36,652 bases of DNA, taken from positions 1 through 36,652 of the forward strand of contig JAJZEE010000030.1 of the NCBI GenBank assembly GCA_021805735.1. Reading direction: 5' to 3'. How positions within the stretch are numbered: position 1 is the stretch's first letter; each line of letters starts with the position of its first letter. Below the pieces are notes generated by a model that was given only the letters and a program-made list of their open reading frames with translations, searched no databases and was not told where the DNA came from. Made by a program: the position numbers and the translations under genes. Source of the DNA: Bacillota bacterium (lineage in GTDB: Bacteria; Bacillota; Bacilli; Alicyclobacillales; SLC66). Below are positions 15,719 through 19,662 of this stretch, one piece after another.

Positions 15719-15817
15719 TGTTTCGAACGTAGTTCCCTTGAAAGACGGAACCGCCAACGAAACTATGTCAGAACCGCTGAAATTGCGTGCGATCTTCTCT
15801 CACAGCCCTTGTGCCCC

Positions 15818-15826
15818 TGCTATAAT
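15818..15826 (+). promoter_or_regulatory. Extended -10 promoter for the amidohydrolase-nitrilase operon
   Basis: TGCTATAAT is a consensus extended -10. It places the transcript start near 15833, directly before the AAGGGGG ribosome site at 15836-15842, so the message has a very short leader. This excludes in-frame starts farther upstream for the next gene. Confidence 0.62.
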
Positions 15827-15854
15827 ACGAGTCGTAAGGGGGCGAATCGCCATT

Positions 15855-17447
15855 TTGATCCTTTCAAACATAGACGGCTACGCGTTCGACTCAAACGGCG
15901 ATCGATTCGACGCCGTCGCGGTCGCAGATGGGCGCATCGTCGCGGTCGGAACTGCCGCAGACTTGTTTGACCGCTATCGACTGGCGCATCCTGAACGCCT
16001 GGACGGGCGTGGCGCGGTAGCATTGCCGGGATTCATCGATTCGCATCTGCATGTGTCGGGCGTAGCATCCACTCTCGCGGAACTCGATGTCGCGGATGCG
16101 CTCTCGATTGACGATCTCCTTGGCCGCATAGCGGCCTATGCGCGATCCCGCGAGCCGGGACAATGGATTGTCGGCGGTGGATTCGACGAAAACCGCTTTC
16201 CCGAACGCCGATTGCCCACTCTGGCAGAACTCGATCAAGCGACAGGCAATACGCCGCTCTTCTTGGCGCGGGTTTGCCGCCACGTTTATCTGGCGAACAG
16301 CGCCGCGTTTGCAGCCGCAGGCGTGGGTCGCGATACGCCCGATCCGATCGCTGGCTTTTTTAGCCGAGACGCGCGCGGAGAATGGACCGGGGCCGTTTAC
16401 GAACAGGCCGCGCTGCCGTTCTTGGCTGCCCTGCCGGATCGCTCCGACGAAGAGTGGATCGAGATTTTATCGAACGCCCTGTCGCAGCTCGCCCGTCTTG
16501 GAATCACAGAGATTCATTCGGATGACTGCCGCTATCTGGGCGGGTTTCTTCGCACAAGAGTCCTTCTGTCGCGCGCCCAGCAGAGAGTGCCCATCCGCAT
16601 TCACGAGCTGCTTTCTTTGGAGGATTGGCGGCAGGGGCGCCTGTCGCAAACGCCTTTGCCCACCAGATCAGACGACGGGCTGCTTACGTTTGGCGCCGTC
16701 AAACTATTTGCCGACGGTTCATTTGGCGGTCGAACCGCATGGCTGAAAGAACCGTACGTGGACGCGCCGCATACGGGACAACCGACATACACAAGAACGG
16801 AGCTTGGGCAGTTGGTGGAAGCGATTCACGCTGACGGATTCGCGGTCGCGATTCACGCCATTGGCGATGCGGCGCTTGACGCTGTGCTTGAGGCTTTGGA
16901 GGCCCATCCGCCCACCCCTGACGCGATTCTTCCCGATCGCATCGTACACGCCTCTCTCTTTAGTGAAGAGGCTGCGGCTCGCGCCGCAAAACTCGCGGTC
17001 GTCATAGACGTGCAACCGCGCTTCATCACGTCTGATCTGCCATGGCTCAGGGAACGAATCGGATCCCATCGAGTCAGACGCGCCTACCCCTTTCGATCGC
17101 TTCTGCAAGCGGGACTGAAGTTGGCGGGAGGGTCCGACGCGCCAGTGGAACCGGCGCCTCCACTGCTTGGCATGCACGCCGCCGCGACACGGCGCATCTT
17201 GGGGCAAACCGAGGTTTACGGCGGACACGAGAGCTTGACGATCGACCAGGCGATTCGGCTCTATACCAAAGACGGGGCGGTCGCGCGCGGGGGAGACAAG
17301 CGCACCCTCGAACCGGGATCTCCCGCGGACCTGGTGCTCCTTTCGAGAAACCCATTTGACTGCCTGGACGCGGACGAGTTGCTGAAGATCCAGATTGTCG
17401 GCACGGTCGTCGGCGGACGCCCGGTGTACTGGGCGGCGCGAGAATGA
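15855..17447 (+). CDS. Amidohydrolase, YtcJ-like (Amidohydro_3)
   Basis: A 530 aa metal-dependent hydrolase of the YtcJ/N-acyl-amide group in the amidohydrolase superfamily. It shows the metal HxH in GFIDSHLHVSG (H64, H66), VKLFADGSFGG (bridging Lys position), AIHAIGDAALD, RIVHASLF and the late metal Asp in GGSDAPVEP, followed by the DLVLLSRNP return strand. I chose a TTG at 15855, 12 bases after AAGGGGG and just after a strong extended -10; the open frame extends to 15615 but overlaps the VOC gene. Its stop overlaps the next start (ATGA at 17444). Probably cleaves an amide, carbamate or similar bond. The substrate is unknown. Confidence 0.86.
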   Translation: MILSNIDGYAFDSNGDRFDAVAVADGRIVAVGTAADLFDRYRLAHPERLDGRGAVALPGFIDSHLHVSGVASTLAELDVADALSIDDLLGRIAAYARSREPGQWIVGGGFDENRFPERRLPTLAELDQATGNTPLFLARVCRHVYLANSAAFAAAGVGRDTPDPIAGFFSRDARGEWTGAVYEQAALPFLAALPDRSDEEWIEILSNALSQLARLGITEIHSDDCRYLGGFLRTRVLLSRAQQRVPIRIHELLSLEDWRQGRLSQTPLPTRSDDGLLTFGAVKLFADGSFGGRTAWLKEPYVDAPHTGQPTYTRTELGQLVEAIHADGFAVAIHAIGDAALDAVLEALEAHPPTPDAILPDRIVHASLFSEEAAARAAKLAVVIDVQPRFITSDLPWLRERIGSHRVRRAYPFRSLLQAGLKLAGGSDAPVEPAPPLLGMHAAATRRILGQTEVYGGHESLTIDQAIRLYTKDGAVARGGDKRTLEPGSPADLVLLSRNPFDCLDADELLKIQIVGTVVGGRPVYWAARE

Positions 17448-18430
17448 ATCATCGAATCACCTTGCGCGCCCTGAACTGGCGCCCGGAGATCGACCCCAGT
17501 CCGCGCGCGCTGTTGGCAGATCTGGAGCATCGCTGTGGAGGCCGAGTCGACGCGAATGGGCTGTTCACCATGGCGAACGACTCAAACGATGGCGCCCCGA
17601 TCGCCGCAATCGTCCTGCCAGCCCACTTCTTCGGCTGCGCTGTCGCGGAAGTCCTGGGTCTGCAGCCGATTGATCACGCGGCCTTGCGGGCGGTGGCTGC
17701 AGCGCCTCGTTTCGCGTGGGAAGAGGCGCTCGACCTGTGCGCACAAGCGGCCCGACGAACGCGAAGCGTGCTCGTTCCCGGCACACACGTTCGCGCGTTC
17801 GGGAACTCGACCCGTCATGGCGCCTACGTCATTGCCCCAGATGGGTCCGTCCTGGCGCAGGTGTGGCAGACCCATCGATCCCGCAGCGAGGAGTGGCTCT
17901 TTGATGAGCGCGGCGACGAGTTGCCAATCTTCGAAACACCTGTCGGAAACATCGGCGTCATCGTCGGCAGGGACGCCTATTATCCAGAAACCGCGCGCAT
18001 GCTGGCGCTGCGCGGGGCGGATGTGATCCTGTCGCCGCAAGGGACGGCGGCCCCATTTAACCCGTGGCGGCAGCTGTCTGGCGTGTGGAAAGACGCGCAA
18101 CAGAACCAGATTTTCGCCGTTGAGGCGCATGTGCAAGGAACTATGTGGGGCCGATTCTTTGAAGGGCGTTCCGCCATTCTCGGCCCCTGCGAAATCACGC
18201 CAGATGGAAGCGGGTTTCTATCGGAACCGGGCGACGCGTTTTTGGAATCCGCGCCTTTGGAATCGACGCTTTCGGATAGCGAACCGCTGATACGGGAGGC
18301 GCAGGTGGGGCTACGCGAGCGCTCGCAGGCGCAGGCCGTCTTCTCCATTATTCCGCATTTGAATCCTGCGCTGTACAGAAATCAACCCTGGTGGCAAACG
18401 CCAGAGGGACCTGGGGGAAATCGGCCATGA
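17444..18430 (+). CDS. Nitrilase-superfamily pseudoenzyme lacking the Glu-Lys-Cys triad
   Basis: A 328 aa protein with the carbon-nitrogen hydrolase fold (VGNIGVIVGRDAYYPETARML aligns with the usual G-V-x-I-C-x-D-x-x-x-P-E block). All three catalytic positions appear changed: the Glu of the FPE loop is Ala60 (VLPAHFF), the Lys of the DKxHL loop is replaced near residue 143 (WQTHRSR), and the nucleophile Cys is Gly175. The scaffold is otherwise intact and full length, and both ends overlap neighbours by ATGA. It is therefore probably translated and kept, and I suggest a regulatory or structural partner of the active nitrilase next door. The alignment was made by eye. Confidence 0.8.
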   Translation: MNHRITLRALNWRPEIDPSPRALLADLEHRCGGRVDANGLFTMANDSNDGAPIAAIVLPAHFFGCAVAEVLGLQPIDHAALRAVAAAPRFAWEEALDLCAQAARRTRSVLVPGTHVRAFGNSTRHGAYVIAPDGSVLAQVWQTHRSRSEEWLFDERGDELPIFETPVGNIGVIVGRDAYYPETARMLALRGADVILSPQGTAAPFNPWRQLSGVWKDAQQNQIFAVEAHVQGTMWGRFFEGRSAILGPCEITPDGSGFLSEPGDAFLESAPLESTLSDSEPLIREAQVGLRERSQAQAVFSIIPHLNPALYRNQPWWQTPEGPGGNRP

Positions 18431-19662
18431 AAGCGTCCGCAAGCGTCCACGCGGCCGTCACGCGCGCAGCCTTGTCCACCCTGCTGTCCGCCGCGCGCGG
18501 CGCGGTCGCCTGGAAGACACGGCCAGCGGCCATCCGCGACGCCTTTGCGCGGCTGTCGCCCGGTGTCGCCGCGCGCGACAGCGACGCCAACCGCGTGCGG
18601 GTTGCCGCCGTGCAATGGCGAGCGACCCTCACGGCAACGGTCGCAGATTATGTCACGGAGATGGACGCGATCGTTCGCGAGAGCGCAACCCTCGGCGCAA
18701 CCGTCGTGGCCTTCCCGGAAAATAACGGCCTGGCCCTGCTCGGGCTCATCCCAGGAGCGAAACGGCTCGCGCGCGCCGCGCTTCCCCAACCGGGTAATAA
18801 AAACGCAGATAAACCTTCCGATCCGCCAGACTCTTCGCAAGAGGCTCGTTCTTCGCAGCCACCGGACTCTGGGCATGTGCCGGACTCCTTGCATCCACAG
18901 GACTCCCCACAAAAGAGCGCTGTGCTGTCGCCGATCGACGTATTTCGCATGATGAGTCCTTTTGTCGATCGCGTAGCGCGCGCCGTCTTTTCCGAGCTGG
19001 CCAAACGGCATCGAATGGTCATCATGGCAGGCAGTTTTCTAGTGACTGACGAGGAGGGGGGCGTTTGCAACACGGCCTATTCGTTTGACGAGACGGGTCG
19101 CTTGATGGGGACCCAGGACAAGCTGCATCTCGTTGATATGGAATCCACATGGGGACTGACTTCGGGACGAACGCTCGCAGCATTTCCCACATCCTTTGGA
19201 ACGCTCGCCGCTCCCGTGTGCATGGACGCGACGTATTTTGAAACCTTTCGAATATTGCTGTCGCTTGGCGTTGACATTGCCCTCTTGCCGATCGGAGACG
19301 CGGCGGAATACCGCGCTTTCTACGCGCTGCGAGGGATCTGGCCGCGCGTGCAGGAGAGTCCGATGTACGGAGTGAAGGCCGCCCTCGTCGGGGATCTGTT
19401 TGGGCAGACATTCACCGGCAAAGCGGGCGTGTTTGCTCCCATTGCCCTTACTCCAAAGCAGAACGGCGTGTTGGCCGAAGCTCTGACATATGATCGTTCG
19501 GAAATCGTGGCGGCTGATTTGGACATTCAGAGACTTCACATTTACCGAGAACAAGAGTGGGAGGACAACGACGTTCGGCCATCCCTCTACGAACGAGACT
19601 TGTCCGAATCATACGCGCGGCTGCGACTGGAAGCGGAACGGGCCAATCCCGGACAGCCGTGA
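18427..19662 (+). CDS. Carbon-nitrogen hydrolase (nitrilase superfamily), active-site intact
   Basis: A 411 aa nitrilase-fold hydrolase with the expected triad: Glu98 in AFPENNG, Lys232 in TQDKLHL and Cys265 in APVCMDATYFE. It is larger than the common 260-330 aa because of an N-terminal Ala/Arg-rich extension of about 55 residues and a Pro/Ser/Asp-rich insertion (about residues 122-165) with repeated PDS units, likely a flexible linker. The start is the ATG of the ATGA overlap at 18427. Co-expressed with an amidohydrolase and a catalytically dead homologue, it probably hydrolyses an amide or nitrile. The substrate is unknown. Confidence 0.86.
   Translation: MKASASVHAAVTRAALSTLLSAARGAVAWKTRPAAIRDAFARLSPGVAARDSDANRVRVAAVQWRATLTATVADYVTEMDAIVRESATLGATVVAFPENNGLALLGLIPGAKRLARAALPQPGNKNADKPSDPPDSSQEARSSQPPDSGHVPDSLHPQDSPQKSAVLSPIDVFRMMSPFVDRVARAVFSELAKRHRMVIMAGSFLVTDEEGGVCNTAYSFDETGRLMGTQDKLHLVDMESTWGLTSGRTLAAFPTSFGTLAAPVCMDATYFETFRILLSLGVDIALLPIGDAAEYRAFYALRGIWPRVQESPMYGVKAALVGDLFGQTFTGKAGVFAPIALTPKQNGVLAEALTYDRSEIVAADLDIQRLHIYREQEWEDNDVRPSLYERDLSESYARLRLEAERANPGQP

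Follow-up and report, generated by a model that had tools for sequence, protein, structure and literature searches.

Enzyme-pseudoenzyme pairs are known in folds other than that of the nitrilases. In trypanosomatids, dead paralogues termed prozymes are kept beside their active enzymes over evolution, and such a paralogue is reported to activate deoxyhypusine synthase approximately 3000-fold and another to activate AdoMet decarboxylase (PMC3663545, PMC5201418). The hallmark of the nitrilase superfamily is a Glu-Lys-Cys triad (PMC5500890), and its functional members are built on dimers (PMC4700190). In NitFhit and Lnt the nitrilase domain is fused to a functional partner, following the Rosetta-stone logic (PMC9913352, PMC5500890). 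Among the open-access papers that were searched, no description of nitrilase-superfamily pseudoenzymes or of enzyme-pseudoenzyme pairs in this superfamily was found. The gene pair described here resembles the prozyme systems in that a dead paralogue accompanies an active enzyme, but it has another fold, resides in a bacterial operon and includes natural fusions. The partner domains of NitFhit and Lnt have a different fold, whereas the fusions found here join one live nitrilase fold to a dead one.

The window, meaning the whole stretch of 36,652 nucleotides analysed, contains two nitrilase-fold genes on the forward strand. Gene A (17444..18430, 328 aa) encodes a putative nitrilase-fold pseudoenzyme and gene B (18427..19662, 411 aa) a nitrilase-superfamily enzyme. 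The two genes share an ATGA start/stop overlap at 18427..18430 (+), which suggests translational coupling and which in the congener L026 reads GTGA. A second ATGA, at 17444-17447, joins an amidohydrolase ORF to gene A. Both products matched Pfam CN_hydrolase, A with 49.0 bits, above the cut-off, and B with 41.4 bits against a cut-off of 23.2, so that a preliminary description of two nitrilase-fold genes joined through ATGA was borne out by the coordinates and the domain matches alike. Neither protein reached the cut-off of any NCBIfam equivalog. Length-variable low-complexity stretches are present in both A and B, and in B such an insert occupies approximately residues 123-165 (18793..18921, +).

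The catalytic positions were set in two ways, by aligning the homologues of A and B jointly and by aligning a profile of 32 A proteins to solved nitrilases over the full length. The nearest structure was 3ivz, to which the A profile aligned with E = 6.5e-31 (profile positions 6-279 against chain residues 1-253) and the B profile with E = 5.6e-27. The sites of the catalytic Glu, Lys and Cys are occupied by A60, Q142 and G175 in gene A and by E98, K232 and C265 in gene B. Both proteins retain the accessory second Glu (E149 in A, E239 in B), a point absent from the preliminary description. The triad reported for B in the preliminary description, Glu98, Lys232 and Cys265, was recovered by both alignments. 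For A, its Ala60, Gly175 and the absence of Lys also stood and the loss of the triad was confirmed with the 3ivz profile, but the Lys position, which had been placed near 143, is that of Q142 and not T143. Gene B thus has the CN_hydrolase fold together with the triad and the second Glu, whereas A has the fold across its full length and lacks the triad, and A is not classed as an enzyme of the nitrilase superfamily. An AlphaFold model of A, made from an input of three near-identical sequences, had a mean pLDDT of 34.5.

A phylum sample of 398 Bacillota genomes was searched with three aligned A proteins, which gave pairs of neighbouring matches in many genomes, and a second search with the profile of 32 A proteins agreed with the first; 80 matching loci were inspected and classified. 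Gene A followed by an adjacent B on the same strand was found in 68 of the 398 genomes, representing 36 families as counted from family labels, and two congeners of the window's genome brought the total to 70 loci. In 69/70 of these the Lys position of A was occupied by Gln, and Lys was found there in none (0/70). All three triad residues were missing from A in 56/70 loci and two in the other 14, so that at least two were lost in 70/70. Cys was kept at its standard place in nine A proteins and Glu in five, and two of the three residues were never kept together (0/70). That the same substitutions are repeated over 70 loci argues against chance as the source of the losses in A. Of the 69 loci with a readable B, 68 had its triad intact; the exception, L109, has Gly instead of Cys, and L097, whose B is broken by an assembly gap, was left out of the readable loci.

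The presence of A together with its partner was conserved except in genome G154, where A stands without B (L131:5831-6652), and probably in its congener G341, where a partial A lies at the contig start and no B follows downstream (L150:1-330). By eye, the gene after the solitary A in these genomes resembles an FMN-binding glutamate synthase-like protein. A further pair was observed in family f33 (L132, L134 and L139), consisting of an A-like protein with the K to Q change and then a second nitrilase-like protein; the latter also lacks a full triad, and both f33 proteins therefore look dead. Plasmid records gave ordinary or weak nitrilase matches only, and viral contigs gave one weak match to A and none to B. 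A class-level search around G091 covered three genomes.

A FastTree phylogeny of 171 sequences placed A (72/72) and B (68/68) in pure sister clades, with supports of 0.86 and 0.995, respectively. The split of A and B together from a small outgroup of 24 ordinary nitrilases had a support of 0.995, and three degenerate f33 proteins were placed inside the A and B group. Because the two pure clades are sisters and stand apart from the ordinary nitrilases, A and B likely arose from a nitrilase-superfamily gene by a single ancient tandem duplication, which would make A a dead paralogue of its active partner. Both proteins carry a G-x-W-x-x-V-Q motif that the ordinary nitrilases compared lack, and the residues G213/G303, W215/W305, Q219/Q309 and G257/G347 (A/B) likewise have no counterpart there, which fits a common origin. 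The patristic distances of A and B were correlated (r = 0.82, the maximum after shuffling being 0.17) and 38 of 65 splits were in common between the two trees, a correlation that would also result from shared inheritance of the operon alone. Median identity was 0.31 for the A proteins and 0.45 for the B proteins, showing that A evolves faster. Q142 and E227 are near-invariant and specific to A, and Asp177, Gln219 and Asn221 are further near-invariant, lineage-specific residues. Pairwise dN/dS of A within the genus was 0.26-0.36 (NG86) or 0.34-0.35 (YN00), values similar to those of B and the amidohydrolase, and gene A is under purifying selection.

In five loci from two families, A and B are fused in a single ORF of 734-834 aa; four of them (L084, L085, L090 and L091) come from a single genus of family f57 and the fifth, L107, from family f66. 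Such fusions denote proximity and not necessarily contact. The recurrence of A with B in 36 families, sometimes fused, suggests that A has been conserved as a pseudoenzyme linked with B, as a lasting partner rather than a decaying gene. The pseudoenzyme linked with B that the preliminary description had proposed accordingly gains from the constant order in 70 loci, the five fusions, the correlation of the two trees and the purifying selection. Both the dimeric architecture of nitrilase-superfamily enzymes and the dead activator paralogues of trypanosomatids favour a prozyme-like arrangement, and we give a probability of roughly 0.6 to A being a partner subunit of this kind that forms a heteromer with B. 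B would have retained the Glu-Lys-Cys chemistry, probably as an amidase. A would have lost it, with Lys almost always replaced by Gln and with small residues in most cases at the Glu and Cys positions, while keeping the scaffold and conserved residues of its own. Since the superfamily enzymes are dimer-based, a sister subunit could occupy one seat, and A would probably pair with B through the same dimer surface and might complete, stabilise or gate it.

The main rival to a heteromer is that A has gained its own role in the same pathway, as a ligand-binding sensor or in a non-nitrilase reaction, and forms no complex with B. We regard this as unlikely, yet it is the reading with most in its favour after the preferred one: Gln142, Asp177, Gln219, Asn221 and Glu227 are near-invariant in a lineage-specific way, G154 has an A but no B, as does G341, where A is a contig-end fragment, and the A-like gene of f33 is accompanied by another nitrilase-like gene, likewise degenerate. 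The fixed position of A directly before B, the overlaps and the fusions in two families speak against it and favour a joint function. It is quite improbable that neither protein is catalytic in practice and that the pair serves as a binding or scaffold module; the B of L109 without its Cys and the f33 pair without a full triad in both proteins point that way, but the triad of B is otherwise kept in every readable locus.

Two readings in which A is simply defective or misread are very improbable. Decay of A could account for its faster evolution relative to B and for one locus, L027, in which the body of the amidohydrolase and the first half of A are missing; in L027, however, B is frameshifted as well, and elsewhere the frames stay open across phylum-level divergence, with Gln142 retained in all loci but one. 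This phylum-wide conservation, taken with the dN/dS of 0.26-0.36, led us to reject A as a pseudogene. Equally poor is the prospect that A carries its catalytic residues at other places in the sequence. The A proteins that keep Cys or Glu do so at the standard place, in the nine and five cases noted above, but the full-length profile alignment to solved nitrilases sets the three positions clearly, and a catalytic Lys or two residues of the triad were found in none of the 70 A proteins; misalignment was ruled out on these grounds.

The genes beside the pair differ between lineages. An amidohydrolase was found there in only 3/70 loci, all in the window's genus, so that the amidohydrolase put forward in the preliminary description as a third step holds as an upstream gene in this genus and not elsewhere, where a GH125-like glycosidase and a sugar-type symporter are found instead. 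A GH125-like gene lies beside the pair in 38/70 loci, a sugar-type symporter (GPH or other MFS) in 22/70 and a PIG-L deacetylase in 9/70, these counts being lower bounds because the inspected stretches vary in length. The GH125-like proteins, encoded outside the window, are approximately 600-660 aa long (L096:7782-9716 and 37 other loci). When five were scanned, four passed the Pfam Glyco_hydro_125 cut-off of 23.4 with 58.9-81.2 bits over a partial domain, and that of L111 fell slightly under it with 22.2 bits. An NCBIfam scan of one member (L096) gave no match, and a search for a GH125-like orthologue in the window's genome gave only a weak match (E = 1.3e-11). In L098:3825-7550, a single open frame of 1242 codons combines B with the GH125-like protein; this sequence was trimmed for the joint A and B alignment.

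These neighbour genes suggest that in many relatives the substrate of B may be an amide-bearing glycoconjugate. A broader proposal, somewhat doubtful as a whole, would be a phylum-wide, obligate and previously undescribed complex of a live nitrilase with a dead Lys-to-Gln sister, acting with the GH125-like glycosidase and the symporter in an amide-glycoconjugate pathway. If true, an uncharacterised two-subunit nitrilase would be present in approximately one sixth of the sampled phylum genomes, and its conserved neighbours would point to an unknown pathway. The near-invariant Lys-to-Gln change makes the role of the dead subunit directly testable.

The amidohydrolase gene of the window (Amidohydro_3, 15852..17447, +, start approximate) ends in the ATGA overlap with A. 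No ATG is found near the start of the domain in its frame, which leaves the N-terminal boundary uncertain; the probable start lies within 15827-15870, a short distance downstream of a TATAAT box, and is ATT, TTG or, for L026, CTG. Directly upstream, at 15799..15826 (+), a promoter-like site matches the consensus only (CTCACA-16-TATAAT, with TG before the -10).

The same three genes, amidohydrolase, A and B, were found in the congeners JA1.bin52 and DX2.bin20, both MAGs. Within the order the pair is limited to three species, all of the window's genus, and it was therefore likely transferred into the genus. The JA1.bin52 bin contains a second copy as a fourth locus (L027, 2529-4521), in which most of the amidohydrolase is missing. 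Its gene A has lost the first 136 residues, the amidohydrolase start being joined in frame to A residue 137, and its gene B has a frameshift near the N-terminus that puts the body in another frame than the start. As B is affected too, the whole locus and not A alone would be decaying; L027 looks decayed or misassembled, its sequence coming from a draft assembly in which an error is possible. We noticed that low-complexity stretches in L027 (2955-3118 and 3684-3768) were expanded as tandem repeats of 15, 45 and 36 bases.
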